DNA of 64,000 bases from Symmachiella macrocystis. GTDB taxonomy: Bacteria > Planctomycetota > Planctomycetia > Planctomycetales > Planctomycetaceae. Both the position numbers and the translations under genes were made by a program. The stretch is from assembly GCF_007860075.1 (NCBI RefSeq), contig NZ_SJPP01000001.1, positions 1,054,001 through 1,118,000 on the forward strand. The letters run 5' to 3'. How positions within the stretch are numbered: position 1 is the first letter of the stretch; each line of letters starts with the position of its first letter. This document shows, in pieces, positions 28,101-47,703 of the stretch. The notes below the pieces were generated by a model. It was not told the origin of the DNA. It was given only the letters and a program-made list of their open reading frames with translations, and searched no databases.

Positions 28101-30770
28101 GCCCCCAAACGCGGCGATTCTCTTAATTTCGACCGCATTGCCTTTTTCATCGACAACCTTCGGCACGTTCCACAGGAAATCGGGACTCACGTCAATCTGC
28201 AGCGGCTTGTTGCTCACGTTACGAATGAACACGGCCATGGGGACACGCTCGCCCGCACGGAATTGACGCCGCGGTTTGGTCAGCGCGACTCCGTATTGAA
28301 TCCCAAGCCGCGCATCGCCCCAAGCGGGCTTCAGCTTGTCGATGAGCTCCGCGGCTTTCTTGCCGCGATAGTGGGTGTTTTGTGCGGCCTTTTCATCGAC
28401 GGGTTCGGCGGCCTTCCCAATGTCTCCTGCGGTGCCCGTCAACGGCCAGACAGCAACGATCGCACCGTCTCCATCCAAGGCGACCGCCACGCTGCTGCCG
28501 TCGGGTGTAATACAGAGTCGCATCGGGCGGTAGTGGGGAATGGCAGCTTGATGCAGCAGTTTGCCTGTTTCAACGCTCCAGGCATGAAGCCGATGGGGAA
28601 TCGTCAACCTCGTCTCGTCGACCATCACGCTGTTGCCGGCAATCAAGGTTTTGCCGTCGCTTGAAAACGACATGGCGCTGATGAGAAGGGGCGAGCCAGC
28701 TTCATCGCGGAGAGAGCGGGCAACCTTCAGCGACTGCATGTCGCGGATCTGGATGTCCACGCGTGAATCGGGGCCTTCCGCCAAGTATTGGCTATCGGGA
28801 GAGAAGGCCAATGAGATAATCCGCCGACCGACGTGAATCTTGCGGGGCTCGCGATCAGTTTGCCATTCCCAATATGTGAGGTCGTTTCCATCCGATATCA
28901 CCAGCCAACGACCATCCGGGGAAAATGCCAAGGCATCGAGACCTCGCGCCTCGATCAGAGCCGTCTTAAGCATCTTGCCCGTGGCAACGTTCCACAGACG
29001 AATTCCTTCGCTATTGCCGACTGCCACGATCTTTCCGTCAGGCGAAATATCGGCAGGGCCGACGTCCGATTTTGCCGCAAACCGATTGACGATGAACGGC
29101 TTTCCGATCTGTTTCGCGTTCTTGATGTCCCAGACTTGAATCTCATCGGCCGGAATCACGAAGGTCCCCGGCGCTAAAGTCGATCCACGGACGAGCAAGA
29201 ACTTGTGGCTGGCCGAGAGTCGTTCAAAGCTGCGAACGAACTTGTCACCGCCCAACGAAAAACGTCCCAGGAGCGTTCCGTTTCGGATATCGATGAGTTC
29301 GTCGCCGATGAGCAGTCGTCGATCGTCAAGCACGAGCGGCGCCGTGCCACCAAAGAGAGATTTTGGCGTCACCTCCCAACGTCGCGCCCACGAGGGCGGA
29401 TGGGTTGGCGACACCTGTTCTGCCAACGATGGTTTCCTCAGCTTCGCGTTGCGCGGGGTTCGTGCCAACTTGTTTCCGTCTGAATCCGGCGACGCTTTGT
29501 CTCCTTTAACCGTGTCCACAGCATCGATCGGTTGTGATTGGCCGTCGGGTACCGCGTCACTCGCCGGTGCCTGAGCCTGCGCCCACGTGTGGGCGATGCC
29601 GGGCACGACGATGAGCGAAACCAAGGTCATCAGCAAGCCCACCATGCCGCCGCGGGTTAACTGCAACCGCGGCGTGTCGCCCCAATTCATCAAGCGCTTG
29701 ATCCGTCGTTCCAGCAATGTCTTCGAATCACCGGTGGCGGCCAATACCGTTACATCGGATTGCCGGGAGACGACACACAATTCCGCGACCCGCAGCAATG
29801 CACCGGCATAGTGCAGCGGCTCGCAGCCGGACGAGACGACCAACTCATCGCAACAGACTTCACGCTCGGCACTTAATCGGCGACTGATGAACCACACGAT
29901 CGGATGAAAAAACAGAAGTGACTCGATGATTCGCTGCAGCAGATTCATCCATAAGTCGTAGCGGCGAATATGAGCCAGTTCATGCCGGATGATCGCCGCG
30001 AAGTCATCGGGACTCAAGCCGGTCATCAATGACATGGGCAGCAGAACCATAGGGCGTAGCACACCTACCACCGTCGGCACGGCGACTCGTTCGCAATAAG
30101 CCACCACCGGCACGCACTTCAACCGTACGCGATCCGCCTGATCGGCAATCAGTTCCAGCAGTTTTGGATCGGTTATGTTTGTTGTTCCAATACGCAGACG
30201 ACGGCCGGCCCATAGAGCAGTGCACAACCGCAACAGAAAGCAAACGACACCGACGACGTAAGCCACCACGAACCATTCAGCGGCACGCGAAAGCATCGGC
30301 GGTGAAGGCCACAGTGACAATATTGAATCGTTGTTGGCAGCTGTCTTGTCATCGGCAACGACTTTAATCGTCTCTGAGTTGCTGACAACGCGGTTGCTGA
30401 GCAAAGATGCGCCAGTCGCTTCTGTGGTCTCCAGCTGAACGGAGGGAGATGACGCTGGCACTGGCTGTAGTGAGGGAGAGGACATTGCCGGTGTGTTGGC
30501 CGGACTTACGATGTGCGAACGCGATTGCCAACTTGCCGGGACGTCGACAACGAAGAACGTGAACACCACACAAACCGGCAAACTAAGGAGTGCTGTGGAG
30601 TAGGAAGCGTATCTCAGTCGAGCGGACGCGCCCCGCAAATGAGTTCCAGCAATGACGATGAGACCACCTATGGCGGCGCCCTGCCACAGGAAATTCAAGA
30701 GCGTAATGAGCCAGCGAACAGCGAGGGCGTTGTCCAAAAGAGTCAGGAGGTGCTGAAATGGTTCAGGCAT
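25131..30770 (-). CDS. Giant BlaR1-like M56 peptidase with WD40 and repeated C-terminal domains
   Basis: BlaR1/MecR1 proteins are membrane metalloproteases that sense a signal and trigger cleavage of BlaI. Residues about 1-330 here contain several membrane helices and the zinc site IIRHELAHIRRYD with downstream REVCCDE. After another hydrophobic segment near 380-400, residues about 500-785 are WD40-type repeats (DISPDGKIVAVGNSEGIRLW, ALAFSPDGRWLVIS, SLAFSPDSQYL). Beyond lie a NVSNKPL-type beta domain (about 815-940), a TIGR03067-like segment (SGTWIP) and, at the C-terminus, a second copy of the beta domain (NVSDHTV). No penicillin-binding sensor is present, so the ligand differs from beta-lactams. 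Overlaps blaI by 8 bp; 1879 aa is exceptionally long. Confidence 0.88.
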   Translation of the reverse strand: MPEPFQHLLTLLDNALAVRWLITLLNFLWQGAAIGGLIVIAGTHLRGASARLRYASYSTALLSLPVCVVFTFFVVDVPASWQSRSHIVSPANTPAMSSPSLQPVPASSPSVQLETTEATGASLLSNRVVSNSETIKVVADDKTAANNDSILSLWPSPPMLSRAAEWFVVAYVVGVVCFLLRLCTALWAGRRLRIGTTNITDPKLLELIADQADRVRLKCVPVVAYCERVAVPTVVGVLRPMVLLPMSLMTGLSPDDFAAIIRHELAHIRRYDLWMNLLQRIIESLLFFHPIVWFISRRLSAEREVCCDELVVSSGCEPLHYAGALLRVAELCVVSRQSDVTVLAATGDSKTLLERRIKRLMNWGDTPRLQLTRGGMVGLLMTLVSLIVVPGIAHTWAQAQAPASDAVPDGQSQPIDAVDTVKGDKASPDSDGNKLARTPRNAKLRKPSLAEQVSPTHPPSWARRWEVTPKSLFGGTAPLVLDDRRLLIGDELIDIRNGTLLGRFSLGGDKFVRSFERLSASHKFLLVRGSTLAPGTFVIPADEIQVWDIKNAKQIGKPFIVNRFAAKSDVGPADISPDGKIVAVGNSEGIRLWNVATGKMLKTALIEARGLDALAFSPDGRWLVISDGNDLTYWEWQTDREPRKIHVGRRIISLAFSPDSQYLAEGPDSRVDIQIRDMQSLKVARSLRDEAGSPLLISAMSFSSDGKTLIAGNSVMVDETRLTIPHRLHAWSVETGKLLHQAAIPHYRPMRLCITPDGSSVAVALDGDGAIVAVWPLTGTAGDIGKAAEPVDEKAAQNTHYRGKKAAELIDKLKPAWGDARLGIQYGVALTKPRRQFRAGERVPMAVFIRNVSNKPLQIDVSPDFLWNVPKVVDEKGNAVEIKRIAAFGGIARFRETLKPGETFGLLSLGVGLGDNPRAKQNWHPYYKAAEAGKYKLTHTLSIDVTGLEEGDQAKREQLISSKIEFEILPTKDTEPIISSNSSNDADNLLSKVDINSLRKKFQRLSGTWIPTTKSRKLLDSSFVKQGNEADLRFEIDEVFGNSMRSTKKFMEDFIEWARKTESDPKLTPIITGNIGPPGPAWSSRTPPAYFMILRRANGRFVMFLGPVVGGRTGINLSLEARQADDKLTIEWIIDEGAGLSPIPIETERAQIVYTRVKERENDPKKENERDVQNRINNENGNSTTVVTIGGGVVAEAESEDTFVSWIHRGSVRMGGIEPIVRLQIRKDGTAIVSKDHRQRESRVKLNPQELAAVLKRLVDDCDVAAIQGPWFNGKPNLWTGSQDRVFIRSGRRTIRLTCEYGWPSAKDRTDANILKFTKLLNVLRETQSLILAGGHEAVEKLLPIANQGLKQHFPTIRPLTTDNFSWGENFLAGYRRVTFWREKTVNNEREKVRVEVIVPDGGEPRLGNMFVNDQRIRPKKQTTNQAVPEDVIYRGLKLSELPATGDPHSLVELYQENPAGSGVYEEHLDTCFMPMPGGTIAIYYRPEAELFFVRREAGDSYSWYGPVAGNPLEKLELEPLLLESMRGFGTAGNARITLVRMARSSNAQLAATGLRLMRQVLTDEATLESIDERARPFHQADLNLDSVIEFLNKSGGDLRKNRIDGLTKLEAAVKAMASRFTKAMPVMSDEQYNEAGYLQQGLPRNDSIQWGRKRDGMQLGISMSEPVVLTPASEPHRTKLYLRNVSDHTVRFHLAGHPAEQVRVEVTDPNGKRIRTEFGDIPTSIPGFPTSWRLEPGEKIELCQIRLAWALPDANVKTTDVRGMRMSTTRLRAVPGRYHATLTTPINSRRVVRGKGEWSGSLTSKTFPVHILSDDSKRNTNGDAAKQGLDQSKTQIGDDSASQLNTLGNQTEAVAKATTAAGHPLSAVWLSTSPTLTF

Positions 30771-31158
30771 TCTTTTTCTCCTTCATCTTTTGATTGAACG
30801 CGCGTCTCAGACGCTTCAGCGATTCGTCGTCCAAATCGGACACATCAAACAGACTCTGCATCACCGCCTCGGCGGACCCGTCGAAAACTCGTTCGATCAA
30901 ATCGCCGAGCATTTTCCCTGAGACATCTGCTTCGCCCAGAACCGGTGTAAAGCGATAAGCTTTACCGACATCCGGATCAAGCTGGTCGAGTTGCCCCTTG
31001 TCCACCATTCGTTGCAACATGGTGATCACCGACGTATGCGCCAGTTTCCGCCCACGCCCGGCCAACACCTCCCGGATCTGCCGGGCCGTCAAAGGCGACT
31101 GCTCCCACAGCACCTTCAGGATCAGCAACTCCAATTCCGTCGGATTTTCCGCAGCCAT
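30763..31158 (-). CDS. BlaI/MecI/CopY-type transcriptional repressor
   Basis: The 131-residue winged-helix protein has ELELLILKVLWEQSPLTARQ, LAHTSVITMLQRMVDKGQLD and a C-terminal helical dimerisation region, all typical of BlaI. Such repressors bind TACA-N2-TGTA palindromes as dimers and are inactivated when the cognate M56 peptidase acts. Two palindromes flank its own promoter (31191-31206 and 31243-31258), so autorepression is expected. Its 3' end overlaps the M56 gene, forming one operon. Confidence 0.95.
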   Translation of the reverse strand: MAAENPTELELLILKVLWEQSPLTARQIREVLAGRGRKLAHTSVITMLQRMVDKGQLDQLDPDVGKAYRFTPVLGEADVSGKMLGDLIERVFDGSAEAVMQSLFDVSDLDDESLKRLRRAFNQKMKEKKNA

Positions 31159-31258: not shown

Positions 31259-31572
31259 ATTGATGTCTGGTCAAAAGGGCGTACAGCTGGACGCGAAACA
31301 ACAAGTGACGGTCAGTCTCAGAAATCGTTTGGAATTCGGCACACCTAATCTCCGGCTGGACCAGCGCCCGCTTCGACGGTCACGACCATGCATTCTGCCG
31401 TCTGCGAATTCAAAATGCCAGCAGTCCGTCGCGGTGGTAGTAGATGATATTGCTCGTGCGCCATATTGTTTAGTATTGATCGACAAGCCGCAGACTGGCG
31501 TCAAATACCAATTCCAACGTGAGTCGGCGAGGAGGATGATCGGAGGGTCAGCACCTGAACGGCTTCTTGCCG
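31259..31572. other. Intergenic region between blaI promoter and kinase gene end
   Basis: About 310 bases with no supported gene; it lies upstream of the leftward blaI promoter and downstream of the leftward kinase gene. No strong terminator was seen. Confidence 0.35.
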
Positions 31573-34500
31573 TTATTTCTTGGTCGTCGGTTGAATCAGC
31601 ACATCTGTGTTATCTTGAAAGCCCGGTAGTTCGATAGTTGATTCCACGTCCTTGGAGCCGACCTTTTCGTAGTAGCGGAGCAGTGCTTCCAGCTTTTGAA
31701 CTTGCACGGCAACCTCGGCCTCTGCCTGTTTAGCCATCAGAACGTCATGAATGTCTAAATCGCCTAGTTCGAAGCGGCGTCTGGTTAGCTTGCTTTGATC
31801 AGCTTTGAAACGAAGGCTTGCCCTTGCTGCTTCGAGCCGAACTTTCAAGACTTCTATCGCAATATTTCTATCGTCTTCGGGAGTGCCGAGGGTATTACTT
31901 ACGAGATTTGTGTAGTATTCATACAGTAGTTGGAGCTCGCGGATTTCCGATTTGGTTTTCACAACTGCTTGCTCAGCTGGCGGGAGGGTGTAAGGATTCA
32001 AATCGCCATTCTCAACTTGACTTTTGACCATGTCGCTTAGGGTTATTTGCGAATTGTTTAGCTTTTTGGCAGCGTCTATTTGTGCCTTGAGAATCGCCAC
32101 AGTCGTTTCTCTTTCAAACTCCAAAACAGCCAATTCATGCTTGAGTTTGGCGACTGAAGCCTGAGACGCACCGCCTTCTTGAGCCGCACGCAGTTTGGTT
32201 CGTAGCTCGCGGAATCGTCGGCCGAAAGCGGAAACTGCGCCGAGGGTTTCTGTGATCCAACGTGCAGATGTTTCCGCAAATCCCCCAACTGCAACACTTG
32301 TAGGCGCTGAGATAGCGCTGACGGAGCCATCCGAATCCGTTCCATCCGAATCCGGCCAAATCAGGCAGATTGTCTGCCCTTCCATCAACACCTTGTTTTT
32401 GGTGAGCTTGGTGATGAAACCGGAAAACGGCGCAAGAATGAGTTGACTGCTTTCTCTGGAGATCTTCGTCTGTAATTCGAGGGAATCTTTCTCGGCCTTG
32501 TTCAATTCAAGATTGGCTTTTGCCAAACCACTTTCGGACTTGGCGACATCTCCCATTGCCTTCTTCACCTGAGCAGTGGCGTGGTCGATTTCAATTTCCG
32601 CTTTCGACTCCTTTGTTTTCTCATCATTTTTTCGCACAATCAAGTCGTTTAAAGCTGCCTGAACCAGTGCCTCAGCTTTGTTGACCTTAGCCTCGGCCTC
32701 CTTGACCTTTCGCTCCGCCTCCTGAAACTTCAATTCCGAAATAACTCTCTGATCGAACAGTTTCTTCTGCCGATCGTAGTCAGCTTTTGCTCCATCTCGC
32801 GCAGCCATGAATTCAGCGAGCTCAGCTTTTTCCGCTTCGACCTTGTTTTCCGCAGATTCAATGGAAGCTTTGGCCGCTGCAACTACCTGACTCTTCACTT
32901 GCTGAAAAGCTTTGAGCTGAGCTTCTAATGCGGCGACGACGGTCGTCGCAGCCGCAAGATTATTTTGGCTTGCCTGTACCTGGAGGCGTGCGGCTTCAGT
33001 CCGGCGTTGTGCAACGGTCTCCTGCTCCTTGAGTCGATTACGATAATTGGGGTCAAGGTCCGCAACTTCAGCAAGTAAGTCACCCTTCTTGACGAGAGCG
33101 TTCTCCCGGATTCCTTCACCCCAACGAATGATGCGCCCTTTGATGGGCATGTCAATGGGGGTTGGAGGACCCTTGCCCATTTCTGGCTGAGTCGTGTTTT
33201 GGGTATTCACCGATCCGATAGGAGCACGCTGCCACGAGAACTCTCGCAGCCGGGGCATATCAAAAGAGACCATCGAGTCCGGATCGACGGAAACGGCTCC
33301 TTGTACTTTGCTGCCTCTGACCCGTAGCGTCAATGAACCAGATTGTTCATTGCCGACCTTCCACCGACCGTTGTACCGTCTTTGCATGCGAGACCATTCA
33401 AGTTGTAATGCGCCGCGACGGCCTTCCGTGTCCGTAAATGCTCCGTTGTACCAGCCGCTGGCTTGTTCCACCGTGGATAAAGAAACGGTTTTCCACCTCT
33501 CACCGGTCCAATCTCCTACGATGTTGGCTGGCTCCGTCAGCTGCCAAGCCGCAAAACCCACTCCGGCAACTAGAACTGACAAAATTAATACCCAAACTCT
33601 AGTGCGTTGAATTCGTGGCGGACTCGATTTGGCCTCGTCACGAGTTGCGGAGGGTTCGCTTATGCTTGCTTCCGACATAGCTTTGACGGAATGCTGTGTG
33701 AGGCGTAGGCACTGTGGCAGCCTCACACGAGTCGGTTGCTGCAAATGGGCCAAGCATCGTTCGAGCAATTCGGCGACCTCTCCAGCACTCTGGTAGCGAT
33801 CGGAAGCATGCTTCGCCATAAGTCGTTCGATGATCAGGCACAACCAATTCGGAATATCTGGGTTAATCTCGCGAATTGGACGAGGATTGGTGTCCGTGAT
33901 TCGACGGAGAATTCCATAAGCCGTTTCCGATCGGAACGGTGGGCGCCCGGTACACGCCGTGTATAACACGCTCCCGATGCTGAACAAATCACTACGTTGA
34001 TCAACGAAATCACCACGCGCCTGTTCAGGCGACATAAATTGTGGTGTCCCGGCGATCACGCCCGTCTGCGTCATTGATGCATCATCCATCGCGCGCGCCA
34101 CGCCGAAATCAGTTATCCATAACCGTTCGATTCCCGAATTTAGCAAAATGTTCGCTGGCTTGATGTCTCGATGAACAAGTCCCTGTTCATGAGCCGCCGC
34201 AAGCCCGGATGCAAGTTGACGCCCAATCCTGACAACCTCAAGTGCCGTCAGCGGCCCACTCTCGTCTATTCGCTTTTGTAGCGATGGACCACGTGCAAAA
34301 GGCATCACCAGATATGGCAGGCCATTAGATTCTGACACTCCATAGATATCAACCACATTATCATGAGTGATCCCTGCTGCGGCCCTCGCTTCTCGTTCAA
34401 ATCGAATTCGAGCCGAACCGCTGTCAGCCAGATGCGGAGCCATAATTTTGATCGCCACCACTCGGCGTAACGAACTGTCGAATCCCTTTAGGACGGCTCC

Positions 34501-34851
34501 CATTCCACCGAAGCCAACCACGCCGCTGACTTCATAGTCGCCGATGCGCCCAAGCATTTCCGGATCGTCAGTAGGCATGAGCGACTCGAGAATGCTTAGA
34601 ACGCGTCGCTTCCGCTGATCTTCACTTTGCTCTCCATTCCATTGAAAGGATGATTCGCAATCGTGGTCACCAAGAAGCTTGACGGCGTCACGCCATATTT
34701 CCGGTTCTGCAGCGCGCTGTTGGATCTCTAGCTGACAACTGGGGCAATTAGTGAGATGGTCTTCGAAGTCGATCATCGCCGAATCGCTCAGGCTTTCATC
34801 AAGATAATCATCAATGAGGTTCATATCGCAGGTATTCTCAGTTGATTTCAT
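31573..34851 (-). CDS. ZAS zinc motif-Ser/Thr kinase-HlyD/TolC-like fusion protein
   Basis: The 1092-residue protein starts behind GAGGAG. Residues 1-42 have C8...H32-x3-C36-x2-C39, the anti-sigma (ZAS) zinc motif. Residues about 105-375 are a Hanks kinase: glycine loop VGFGGMGAVL, AIKIMAPHL, catalytic HRDIKPANILL, DFGVARA and SPEQARG. A transmembrane helix lies near 417-438 and a beta domain (VGDWTGERWK, YNGAFTDTEGRRG) near 445-540. Then PIKGRIIRWGEGI and VKKGDLLAEV start a HlyD-type adaptor, with long coiled coils (about 590-800) and the returning LILAPFSGFI lipoyl half. The end (about 1000-1060) has RRRFELGDLDIHDVLMAKQA, as in TolC-type helices. Overlaps the upstream ECF gene by 14 bp. Confidence 0.85.
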   Translation of the reverse strand: MKSTENTCDMNLIDDYLDESLSDSAMIDFEDHLTNCPSCQLEIQQRAAEPEIWRDAVKLLGDHDCESSFQWNGEQSEDQRKRRVLSILESLMPTDDPEMLGRIGDYEVSGVVGFGGMGAVLKGFDSSLRRVVAIKIMAPHLADSGSARIRFEREARAAAGITHDNVVDIYGVSESNGLPYLVMPFARGPSLQKRIDESGPLTALEVVRIGRQLASGLAAAHEQGLVHRDIKPANILLNSGIERLWITDFGVARAMDDASMTQTGVIAGTPQFMSPEQARGDFVDQRSDLFSIGSVLYTACTGRPPFRSETAYGILRRITDTNPRPIREINPDIPNWLCLIIERLMAKHASDRYQSAGEVAELLERCLAHLQQPTRVRLPQCLRLTQHSVKAMSEASISEPSATRDEAKSSPPRIQRTRVWVLILSVLVAGVGFAAWQLTEPANIVGDWTGERWKTVSLSTVEQASGWYNGAFTDTEGRRGALQLEWSRMQRRYNGRWKVGNEQSGSLTLRVRGSKVQGAVSVDPDSMVSFDMPRLREFSWQRAPIGSVNTQNTTQPEMGKGPPTPIDMPIKGRIIRWGEGIRENALVKKGDLLAEVADLDPNYRNRLKEQETVAQRRTEAARLQVQASQNNLAAATTVVAALEAQLKAFQQVKSQVVAAAKASIESAENKVEAEKAELAEFMAARDGAKADYDRQKKLFDQRVISELKFQEAERKVKEAEAKVNKAEALVQAALNDLIVRKNDEKTKESKAEIEIDHATAQVKKAMGDVAKSESGLAKANLELNKAEKDSLELQTKISRESSQLILAPFSGFITKLTKNKVLMEGQTICLIWPDSDGTDSDGSVSAISAPTSVAVGGFAETSARWITETLGAVSAFGRRFRELRTKLRAAQEGGASQASVAKLKHELAVLEFERETTVAILKAQIDAAKKLNNSQITLSDMVKSQVENGDLNPYTLPPAEQAVVKTKSEIRELQLLYEYYTNLVSNTLGTPEDDRNIAIEVLKVRLEAARASLRFKADQSKLTRRRFELGDLDIHDVLMAKQAEAEVAVQVQKLEALLRYYEKVGSKDVESTIELPGFQDNTDVLIQPTTKK

Positions 34852-35464
34852 GGAGTGACTCCTCGCTAAGGTCCAATCCTTCTAGTCGCAGTGCTGCGTT
34901 TCGAATTCGGCGCATGACGCGACTGCGGGCCGCGTAGATGCTACCTGTCGAGACAGCAAGAACCTCTGCTGCCTGATCAATGGGCATTTGCTGTAACGCA
35001 GTCAACTCGAAAGCGAGCCAGGTTGGCTCCTGTACCTCAGAGCGCACCTTCTCGGCTGCCCGCTGTAATTGTTCGCGACGATACTCAAAATTGATCAGTG
35101 CATCGGTTTCAGGATCAGCCGCCGGCAGGTTTGACAAGATGTCAAGAATCACAGAGCCACCTGCCGCTTGGTCACGTGGTTGCCGGGAGAGAGCCTTAAT
35201 GATCGCATTTCGCGTAATTCGGCTCAACCAGTTGCGAAACCGGATTTGGCTGGACTGCTTCTCATATCTGTCGATCGCCGAGGCGACTGACATAAGAACT
35301 TGCTGAACGAGATCAAGTGCATCAGCATGTTGAAGCCCTTTCGCACGGGCAATTCGGAAGATCACTGGACGATATAGCCGTTCAAATTCGCACCACGCCG
35401 CTCGATTAGACGGATCTCGAACCCGAACAATCAAGCTCTCGATGGTTTCAGGAAATTCAGGCAC
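34838..35464 (-). CDS. ECF sigma factor paired with the HlyD-fused kinase
   Basis: Starting at GTG 35464 behind GGAGG the protein has 208 residues; the longer frame upstream is not needed, because the paralogous sigma at 40589 begins at the same point of the alignment (ETIESLIVRVRDPSN versus ETRASLLIRVRDPSN). Region 2 is YRPVIFRIARAKGLQHADAL, DLVQQVLMSV, FRNWLSRITRNAI; region 4 is AFELTALQQMPIDQAAEVLA and STGSIYAARSRVMRRIRNA. The kinase start lies within its 3' end, so co-translation is likely and the kinase N-terminal zinc motif may hold this sigma factor inactive. Confidence 0.92.
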   Translation of the reverse strand: MPEFPETIESLIVRVRDPSNRAAWCEFERLYRPVIFRIARAKGLQHADALDLVQQVLMSVASAIDRYEKQSSQIRFRNWLSRITRNAIIKALSRQPRDQAAGGSVILDILSNLPAADPETDALINFEYRREQLQRAAEKVRSEVQEPTWLAFELTALQQMPIDQAAEVLAVSTGSIYAARSRVMRRIRNAALRLEGLDLSEESLHEIN

Positions 35465-35866
35465 AAAGATCCTCCATATGTGGTTATTGTACCTAATCCA
35501 TCTGATCGTGGATTCTGACAACCCTTTTTGGAAAATCACATATTTCCTGCGAAATTGGTCTCCGGACTAGGGGGGTGATGTACGGCGGGGTGAGATTGCC
35601 CGAAGCATGAGAATTCAAGAGATTGGAGCGTTGAGACGCTCGCCGCAAACGCGGTATTAAAGACTCGAAGTCAGTCCTCTGGTTGCTTTGACTACAACCA
35701 GCCATCACTGCCTGCGCTAACTGCCTCCGCAAATTGCGCGCGGGCTGTTAACCAACTTCAAAAAGTTCGAAGAGGGTTGGTTACGTTTCGAGCCACCTCG
35801 ACGGACTCAAGCTACTGTAACTCCTTGCTAGTACTGGGTTTCTGGAAACAGGCCCAAAGGGAATGG
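35465..35866. other. Intergenic region between two sigma-kinase modules
   Basis: About 400 bases. An imperfect inverted repeat (GTTAACCAAC near 35747 and GTTGGTTAC near 35775) could end the kinase-2 transcript but has no T run. It should also contain the promoter of the downstream sigma gene. Confidence 0.35.
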
Positions 35867-40588: not shown

Positions 40589-41185
40589 TTACAATTCTCC
40601 GTCATATTCGCTGATGATTTCTTGAATTCGGCGCATGATGCGGCTGCGGGCGGCATAGATCGCCCCTGGGTTTTTGACGAGTTTTCCTGCGACAGCTTCA
40701 ACTGAGCCCCCCTCGACCGCAGTCAGCCAAAACGCGTCCCACGTTGCCTGTTGGAATTCAGGACGAACTTGCCTAGCGGCCCGGCGAAAGACTTCCCGGC
40801 GGTACTCCAATCGCAACAGGTCCGAATCGGGGCCAGTACAGGATTCGTGTTGATTCAAGGCCGCCTGTATGGCCGAGTCACCCGACCCTCGATCAGGTTT
40901 CCCACGTGTCAACGCATTGAGAATCGCATTGTGTGCGACCCGATGAAGCCATGTGCGAAACTTGGCTCGCTGCGGATCGTATTTACATTGCTCAACTGTT
41001 TTGGCGACCGAGACCAAAACTCGTTGAGCGACATCCTCCGCATCGGCATCTTGCATCCCTTTTTGACGCGCCATACGTAAAATCACCGGTCGGTATATTT
41101 CGACAAACTCATGCCAGGCGGCCTGATTCGACGGATCGCGAACACGGATCAGCAAGCTGGCTCGTGTTTCCGGTGTCAAGTTCAT
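40589..41185 (-). CDS. ECF sigma factor paired with giant kinase 2
   Basis: The 198-residue protein starts MNLTPETRASLLIRVRDPSN at ATG 41185. It has region 2 (YRPVILRMARQKGMQDADAE, DVAQRVLVSVAKTV, FRTWLHRVAHNAILNA) and region 4 (AFWLTAVEGGSVEAVAGKLV, NPGAIYAARSRIMRRIQEI). It is a clear paralogue of the sigma factor at 34838. These belong to the planctomycete ECF type linked with membrane Ser/Thr kinases. The kinase gene follows on the same strand, 57 bp downstream. Confidence 0.93.
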   Translation of the reverse strand: MNLTPETRASLLIRVRDPSNQAAWHEFVEIYRPVILRMARQKGMQDADAEDVAQRVLVSVAKTVEQCKYDPQRAKFRTWLHRVAHNAILNALTRGKPDRGSGDSAIQAALNQHESCTGPDSDLLRLEYRREVFRRAARQVRPEFQQATWDAFWLTAVEGGSVEAVAGKLVKNPGAIYAARSRIMRRIQEIISEYDGEL

Positions 41186-41529
41186 CAATGATAAGCCAAT
41201 GATTGAATTCTCTGGGTTGCTGCTATTCTATTGGACTCTGAGAGTTCAAAACATCGACCTGAACCAATCGGTCCCGTGAACACTTCCCTAATCCCTTATA
41301 CACGAGCGAGACCAATTTCTAACATTCGCGTCGATCTTCAAACTTAAGTTTTGTGGATTGACTACAGATCGAACAAGCGATTGCGAGAATGTTCAACCAT
41401 ATTGAAACCGAATCCGATTCGGTTTCCCGGTGACAAGCCAGCCACACCGTCGAGATGTCTTAGGAATAGTTCGAAAGTCGGCGAGATTCAAAAAATTAGA
41501 AAGCAACCTTTTCTGACAATACGGTCGTT
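41186..41529. other. Intergenic region upstream of ECF sigma gene
   Basis: About 340 bases with no supported gene. It marks the boundary between the signalling block and the accessory region and must contain the sigma-kinase promoter; no sigma-70 consensus is evident. Confidence 0.35.
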
Positions 41530-46890: not shown

Positions 46891-47109
46891 TTCCTGTGAA
46901 TTAGGGGTAGTGGCACCTAATTCACCCTTCGCCTCCTTGTGCGAACGCTTGTGGTCGCTCCACAGCTCGCTAGCGACATCATCCACATCCTGGGCGACGT
47001 AGTAATCCATCGTCGTCTTGATGTCGGCAGGCCGCATCAGCAATTGCAGCGTCGCTCGCGGTCCAAAAACAATGATGAACGGAAGTTGAACGACGAAATG
47101 GGCTTCCAC
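46858..47109 (-). pseudogene. Tyrosine integrase, C-terminal remnant
   Basis: The minus frame contains RATLQLLMRPADIKTTMDYY and VAQDVDDVASELW, matching the last part of tyrosine recombinases, where LMRHxxxxTTMxYY carries the catalytic Tyr region. Here the usual His of MRHA is Pro (MRPAD). Only about 80 residues survive; sequence upstream of R-A-T-L-Q no longer resembles an integrase. The remnant ends beside the candidate attachment site. Confidence 0.72.
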
Positions 47110-47703
47110 TTAAAATTGCTTGGCAGAAATGTCGGCGGAAATCATGGTTTCCTGCCACACTTGCTACTGCAAATTTGGAGTTTGTCACGGTAAGTGCGCA
47201 TGGCGAGCGCAGCTGCGAAGACGTGGGCGATGATGAAATCACGTGGCGCGTTCGTACCACTGAATCAGCCCGCCGAGTCGTTCGTGGCGAACGACCTGAT
47301 CGAGTACAGTCGTTTTGTTCTCGGGTGGTAGATCGAAAAAAGACAGAACTACGATCGAAACCTCTACGAATCGATAGCTTTGAACACATCGTCGAACTGT
47401 GCTGTGAATTTCAAATCGCGGCCTCAGATGAGGCAGGCCGGATTGTTGTCGCGATCAGCAGCAACAGCAGGTGAAATAGCAGGGACTTCCTGTGCCTGTC
47501 TGTGTTTTCGATAACGTGCTGTCGTTTTTGTGGGATAGCATTGTTTTTGCACCCCTCTGGAATGGTGATCGCAACGATTGGGCGCCGAAACTCGCGCAGT
47601 GTTAACCGCCGACAACGTCTCTTTACAAAAAGAGCAATTGGTTTGTTGAGGGTTTTGAATCGGGGTGACTCTTGTTTCAAGACGACTATTTACCCGGCGT
47701 CGA
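47110..47703. other. Degenerate intergenic region
   Basis: Nearly 600 bases between the integrase remnant and the DUF1501 gene. Several short frames exist on both strands, one with a hydrophobic LLFHLLLLLIATT stretch (minus, near 47420-47470), but none has a convincing start, so no gene is called. Confidence 0.4.

Follow-up and report, generated by a model that had tools for sequence, protein, structure and literature searches.

The window analysed here is a stretch of 64,000 nucleotides from Symmachiella macrocystis (RefSeq assembly GCF_007860075.1, contig NZ_SJPP01000001.1, positions 1,054,001 to 1,118,000). It carries on its minus strand a gene whose product joins an N-terminal zinc-binding anti-sigma (ZAS) domain and a Hanks-type Ser/Thr kinase to a tail resembling parts of the HlyD adaptor and the TolC channel of export machines (Table 1). 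The gene follows that of an extracytoplasmic function (ECF) sigma factor, the end of whose open reading frame (ORF; 34838-35539, minus strand) its start overlaps by 14 bases. The same fusion is present in five genomes from four genera of one planctomycete family: the genome analysed here (G000), G098 and G172 (one genus), G141 (a Planctomycetaceae metagenome-assembled genome, MAG; JANSXP010000064) and G070 (a Fuerstiella MAG; JALHMY010000049).

The N-terminal half of the protein and the overlap with the sigma gene are as described in the initial annotation, which had given no strand. The Pfam zf-HC2 family matches residues 12-40 (E 9.7e-6; 26.0 bits against a cutoff of 22.2), and the H-x3-C-x2-C motif, preceded here by a cysteine (C8) 24 positions ahead of the histidine, was kept with a cysteine 24 or 25 positions ahead in 30/30 relatives inspected. 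This N-terminal zinc motif and the adjacent ECF sigma gene are the marks of class I ZAS proteins, by analogy with which the domain likely binds its cognate sigma factor. The kinase domain is complete, with the catalytic lysine in VAIK at 132, HRDIKPAN at 227 and DFG at 248. It is followed by the only hydrophobic segment in the protein (19-residue windows starting at 416-421, hydropathy 1.64-2.01) and by a small beta domain that is common to this protein and a neighbouring paralog and absent from the G070 fusion.

Table 1. Features of the fusion locus and adjoining DNA, numbered from the first nucleotide of the window
Feature	Position	Strand	Basis or remark
Fusion gene, 1092 amino acids, ATG start	31573..34851	-	ZAS anti-sigma, Ser/Thr kinase, transmembrane helix, beta domain, HlyD-like module, TolC-like hairpins
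Zinc anti-sigma motif C8 ... H32-x3-C36-x2-C39 (residues 8-39)	34735..34830	-	Pfam zf-HC2 and relatives
Hanks-type Ser/Thr kinase domain (residues 106-354)	33790..34536	-	Pfam Pkinase E 2.5e-43
Single transmembrane helix (about residues 416-437)	33541..33606	-	Hydropathy; position of the HlyD N-terminal anchor
Small all-beta domain (about residues 450-520)	33292..33504	-	AlphaFold2 strands, paralog alignment
HlyD-type lipoyl half, long antiparallel hairpin, second lipoyl half (residues about 564-836)	32344..33162	-	Without beta-barrel domain
Hairpin-tip RxxxLxxxxxxS (R694, L698, S705)	32737..32772	-	TolC-docking motif of adaptors
Two tandem TolC-like helical hairpins (residues about 897-1065)	31657..32163	-	AlphaFold2 helices, repeat and profile scores
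RFExG...V element with tip glycine G1030, like the TolC closing hairpin	31741..31776	-	3/3 tails having this part
Cognate ECF sigma factor, about 208 amino acids, probable GTG start 35464 (longest ORF from 35539)	34838..35464	-	Orthologs and Shine-Dalgarno
Shine-Dalgarno-like GGAGG of the sigma gene	35471..35475	-	Sequence
Promoter-like TGTCARA-N14-GGATTAG	35493..35520	-	28 nt before the sigma GTG at 35464
Paralogous ECF sigma	40589-41188	-	Pair with the 1567-residue ZAS-kinase, next to the fusion locus
Paralogous ZAS-kinase, 1567 amino acids	35867-40570	-	53% identical over residues 7-542, different tail
M56 (BlaR1-type) protein, 1879 amino acids	25131-31158 including small ORF	-	WD40-like repeats; adjoins the fusion gene
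Small ORF overlapped by the start of the M56 protein	30763-31158	-	BlaI/MecI repressor-like by eye
Dispersed repeat downstream of the fusion gene	~31315-31457		Several copies elsewhere in the genome (79-94% identical)
Probable dispersed repeat	~47057-47327		Similar to several distinct sites within a single 19-kb region of sister species G001

An adaptor-like module and a channel-like end

The tail (residues 440-1092, which the initial annotation had proposed for structure prediction) was modelled with AlphaFold2 from an alignment of 21 sequences, two fused orthologs being left out. In this model (predicted local confidence, pLDDT, 76) two beta halves flank an antiparallel hairpin formed by helices 603-700 and 706-800, of ~97 residues each. 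Lipoyl halves around a long alpha-hairpin are the arrangement by which HlyD-family adaptors are recognised, and the best Foldseek matches in the PDB were EmrA (4tko, 1.3e-7) and E. coli HlyD (5c21, 1.6e-7). Since unrelated coiled-coils dominated the matches obtained with VIA-align, with EmrA and HlyD among them (Z 12.5 and 12.0, large root-mean-square deviation), the HlyD assignment is carried by Foldseek and by sequence. A stand-alone HlyD encoded 100 kb away in the same genome is 48% identical to residues 566-840 (287 columns, E 4e-73); the NCBIfam HlyD model TIGR01843 matches 582-838 (E 1.5e-4, under its cutoff) and a PDB sequence search gave weak matches to resistance-nodulation-division (RND) adaptors (best 0.0069). 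The HlyD lipoyl and coiled-coil segments noted in the initial annotation are therefore there, but the beta-barrel domain that follows the second lipoyl half in adaptors is missing in 5/5 fusions when aligned with stand-alone HlyD, so that the predicted module is an incomplete adaptor. The fusion locus also has no gene for an inner-membrane transporter: its neighbours are the sigma gene, a paralogous pair and an M56 protein, and the pump operon lies elsewhere. The length of the helices is the only argument for the earlier suggestion that the protein spans the envelope.

At the tip of the hairpin lies the RxxxLxxxxxxS motif, whose residues are required for the binding of HlyD to TolC, and likewise in MacA and AcrA (PMC3391258); exceptions to the motif and competing models of pump assembly exist (PMC4446572). 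Across the five fusions the leucine and serine are kept in 5/5 and the arginine in 4/5. The conserved positions of the five tails fall in the lipoyl halves and the hairpin tip, the hairpin arms being more variable, and invariant hairpin residues are enriched at the tip (4/24 vs 7/171; Fisher p 0.033, a modest value uncorrected for shared ancestry).

The resemblance to TolC is confined to the C-terminal end. The closest stand-alone HlyD is encoded between the other two genes of an ATP-binding cassette (ABC)-HlyD-TolC operon that occurs across planctomycetes, and the TolC of this operon matches residues 1005-1076 in BLAST (E 6e-5), with hhalign giving E 3.9e-5 over 65 columns and a family hidden Markov model E 7e-4 (best of 200 shuffles 1.1). 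No match to the Pfam family OEP was found in the fusion protein of this genome, and that in the G141 ortholog (E 8e-4) is below cutoff. The hairpins are repeats of each other in tandem (z 12.7 in this protein, 28 in G098), and the second matches TolC at z 10.6. TolC-like helices are present in 3/5 fusions, and in all three the RFExG element is invariant and the tip glycine kept; tip glycines of outer membrane factors have been proposed to contact the adaptor leucine (PMC4069162). In the AlphaFold2 model this end is made of helices only, with no outer-membrane strands predicted. The closing helix recognised earlier thus stands as above-chance similarity to TolC by several tests, but it is short and would represent an incomplete channel that cannot form one alone. 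Profile similarity was found to both HlyD and TolC; its absence had been named in the initial annotation among the results that would speak against its reading.

One fusion in five genomes, and its likely source

The distribution of the fusion was established with two queries, the HlyD segment against 150 genomes of the family and the sigma factor against 170. Each fusion sits downstream of an orthologous sigma gene whose product is 68-79% identical to that of this genome; the next-nearest sigmas are 51-58% identical, and the core behind those examined is the same but bears a different tail. Among 397 genomes of the class no additional fusion-clade sigma was found, and a plasmid search returned kinase matches, none of them covering 80% of the fusion protein. 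The idea of a unique chimera or artefact was rejected given the four other genomes. By their kinase cores the five fusions group as a single clade (100/100), and a single origin of the HlyD parts is not rejected (approximately unbiased test, p-AU 0.324); a tree of HlyD by itself, in which G070 and G141 have long branches, neither supports nor rejects monophyly.

In nearly all relatives examined the sigma gene lies directly upstream of the ZAS-kinase, and other clades of the same core bear other tails (short ones, and others propeller/WD40-like and PEGA-like by eye). Because the nearest relatives keep the core but differ in the tail, the tail is best read as a swapped sensor or input module on a conserved sigma/anti-sigma/kinase core. 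As a statement about anatomy and evolution, the initial description of a sensor built from an efflux scaffold is thereby borne out: the fusion recurs in five genomes with an HlyD-like fold and a retained docking tip, and the tail varies on a conserved core.

The ABC-HlyD-TolC operon is the candidate source of the tail. A profile of the TolC-like end retrieves the TolC, and also the HlyD, of this operon family in several genomes, and the order HlyD then TolC in the fusion is that of the operon. The simplest inference, which is not a proven history, is that the tail was captured in frame from such an operon, with a deletion. The stand-alone HlyD occurs in 5/5 fusion genomes (56-64% identity to the copy encoded here), but because it is widespread in the family, co-occurrence alone says little. 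An ABC-HlyD pair is also found in two Myxococcota MAGs (L120, L121; 38-44% identity), which suggests either transfer between phyla or an old origin.

The adaptor and channel ancestry might nevertheless be incidental, the tail serving as a long coiled-coil for oligomerisation of the kinase or for its attachment to some other envelope structure, with the signal read by the beta domain or through the oligomeric state rather than by docking on a pump. This is the main rival to a sensor of a pump or of the envelope, and we regard it as possible but well short of probable. It would account for a tail that evolves fast (G000 vs G098: at most 48% identity, against about 75% in the core), has lost the beta-barrel domain and varies in length among the five fusions, and for the sharing of the beta domain with the paralog. 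A mere spacer, however, would have no need of the points at which the tail is conserved, namely the lipoyl halves and the hairpin tip, and the fusion in G070 does without the beta domain.

The sigma factor, its upstream element and neighbouring genes

The sigma gene probably starts not at 35539 but at the GTG at 35464. Its product matches Sigma70_r2 (E 2e-11), r4_2 (3.8e-4, below its cutoff) and TIGR02937 (E 6.6e-17, above its cutoff), so that both the sigma2 and sigma4 regions that characterise ECF factors are recognised. Upstream lies the element TGTCARA-N14-GGATTAG, found with zero mismatch and the same spacing in 5/5 fusion genomes, 25-28 nt before the sigma start codon in 4/5 of them and farther upstream in G070. 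No other perfect copy was found in 4/5 fusion genomes; sites with one mismatch lie mostly within ORFs or before nothing recognisable, and the reversed pattern used as a control gave 0 to 4 per genome. The element is probably the sigma's own promoter and, since it looks like an ECF-type promoter, the sigma factor is likely autoregulated.

A second perfect site in G070, before an HlyD-like ORF, was considered as a link to a wider regulon and rejected. This locus (L170:5683-6501, C34) duplicates the sigma/kinase locus in decayed form: the same prepilin-like ORF flanks both, and the site is therefore not independent evidence. What remains of the duplicate is the promoter-like element and a portion of the HlyD hairpin, the sigma and kinase genes having been lost; by eye, the arginine and leucine of the hairpin tip are lost as well.

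The initial annotation also proposed that phosphorylation releases the sigma factor. The only route of this kind that could be read from sequence is that of ECF43 factors, in which the DAED motif is replaced by uncharged residues and a phosphorylated threonine (PMC8103513, PMC13147305). Fusion-clade sigmas carry DALD in four cases and DASD in one, and because they keep D-A-x-D the ECF43 phospho-switch as described does not apply; the proposed release by phosphorylation found no direct support here. An ECF43-like version, in which the kinase phosphorylates the sigma factor as a positive control, the phosphate being needed for binding to RNA polymerase and the ZAS domain being vestigial, could point to the complete kinase adjacent to the sigma gene, to the activation of the ECF43 members EcfP and EcfK by phosphorylation (PMC8103513, PMC13147305) and to several Ser/Thr residues that are invariant in the sigma (T32, S35 and others). 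With both aspartates of the DAED motif retained and the zinc motif kept in all relatives, we consider it unlikely.

Next to the fusion locus lies a paralogous pair of ECF sigma and ZAS-kinase genes. In the tail of the paralog kinase, residues 867-921 are a short segment resembling an adaptor hairpin (RND_mfp E 0.0035), and inspection by eye suggests lipocalin-like repeats; this kinase groups with one from G014, outside the fusion clade. The M56 protein adjoins the fusion gene on its other side (Table 1).

A possible sensor of export machinery and its relation to known systems

We tentatively propose, at slightly less than even confidence, that the gene encodes a membrane-anchored class I (ZAS) anti-sigma factor and Ser/Thr kinase with an HlyD-TolC-derived extracytoplasmic sensor of a pump or of the envelope, which releases its sigma factor. 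At rest, the ZAS domain would keep the ECF sigma factor at the membrane. The tail, placed like an HlyD adaptor, would use its hairpin tip to dock on an outer-membrane channel or next to HlyD within a pump, and so report pump assembly, load or envelope spacing. Altered docking or a change in oligomeric state would then switch the kinase, which would phosphorylate its own anti-sigma or linker region (or the sigma factor), and the freed sigma factor would transcribe its own operon from TGTCARA-N14-GGATTAG. The sequence shows a sigma/anti-sigma/kinase unit, a fusion that is conserved, an HlyD-like fold, docking tips that are retained and a fixed promoter-like element; docking, sigma binding and phosphorylation are the steps that we infer.

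Several observations weigh against this proposal. The fusion locus is not beside the pump operon, and pump operons have no TGTCARA-N14-GGATTAG within 3 mismatches, leaving a regulatory link between fusion and pump unsupported. The TolC similarity, at only ~65 residues, is weaker and shorter than that to HlyD; tip conservation could be inherited rather than selected, its enrichment being marginal; and the full-length AlphaFold model was poor (pLDDT 54 with five sequences) and was left unused. The tails also differ in length, those of G070 and G172 (2/5) ending just after the lipoyl part, while in G141 a frameshift in the assembly divides the fusion in two (181 + 907 residues), and the sister species G001 has only the last 53 codons, with an internal stop, plus downstream DNA at 89% identity. 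Such truncated, frameshifted and remnant copies indicate that the sensor is labile. The stop-containing remnant, the frameshifted copy and the decayed duplicate in G070 would also suit a decaying chimera, a tail gained by accidental recombination with the pump operon and doing little, which we judge very improbable: long open frames, lipoyl parts and tip are conserved across four genera at 29-48% tail identity, and the tip arginine and leucine, lost in the decayed duplicate, are largely kept in intact fusions.

A more specific form of the sensor proposal, which we hold to be doubtful though conceivable, is that of a 'reporter adaptor'. Here the HlyD-like tip would dock on the TolC-like channel of a pump and the TolC-like tip might mimic the channel for free HlyD, assembly or blockage being signalled to a kinase that releases the autoregulated ECF sigma factor. 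If so, the sensor would read the export machinery by being an altered part of that machinery. How bacteria monitor the assembly and blockage of envelope-spanning export machines is poorly understood, and a conserved switch whose sensor derives from pieces of such a machine could be tested by point mutations at a known docking motif. Planctomycetes, which are rich in kinases and ECF sigmas, would gain new sensors by tail swaps on one sigma/anti-sigma/kinase core.

We found no literature report of a ZAS-kinase with an adaptor- or channel-derived sensor, many subscription papers lying outside the search, and no paper joining HlyD, Ser/Thr kinases and planctomycetes; HlyD and TolC are unmentioned in the main text of a survey of planctomycete kinases (PMC11032199). 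The expanded family of Ser/Thr kinases described there, with WD40, TPR and many other C-terminal accessory domains, resembles the present one. Like membrane-anchored class I anti-sigmas (anti-sigma domain I, ASDI/ZAS, zf-HC2), the fusion has an N-terminal zinc motif, a gene that follows and overlaps that of an ECF sigma, one transmembrane helix and a variable extracytoplasmic sensor; unlike them, it has a full Ser/Thr kinase between the ZAS domain and the membrane, and a sensor derived from an adaptor and channel. It shares with ECF sigmas linked to Ser/Thr protein kinases (ECF43 EcfP-PknT and EcfK-PknS; ECF59/60) the pairing with a membrane-spanning Hanks kinase whose extracytoplasmic domain varies, but differs in having a ZAS domain and in a DAED motif that keeps two aspartates, with no phosphorylatable replacement in 4/5. 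With the HlyD/EmrA adaptors of type I secretion and tripartite pumps it has in common the lipoyl-hairpin-lipoyl order, the RxxxLxxxxxxS tip and the topology of the N-terminal anchor, whereas it lacks the beta-barrel domain, has a kinase in place of the short cytoplasmic N-terminus and is encoded without a transporter alongside. The closing helical hairpin with its RFExG tip, found in 3/5 fusions, recalls TolC/OEP outer membrane factors, although the match extends over ~65 residues, has no predicted beta-barrel strands and occurs as tandem hairpin copies. Pairs of ECF sigma and kinase are known already, as are membrane anti-sigmas whose sensors can be swapped; what is new in the predicted protein is the type of sensor, derived from an adaptor and a channel.

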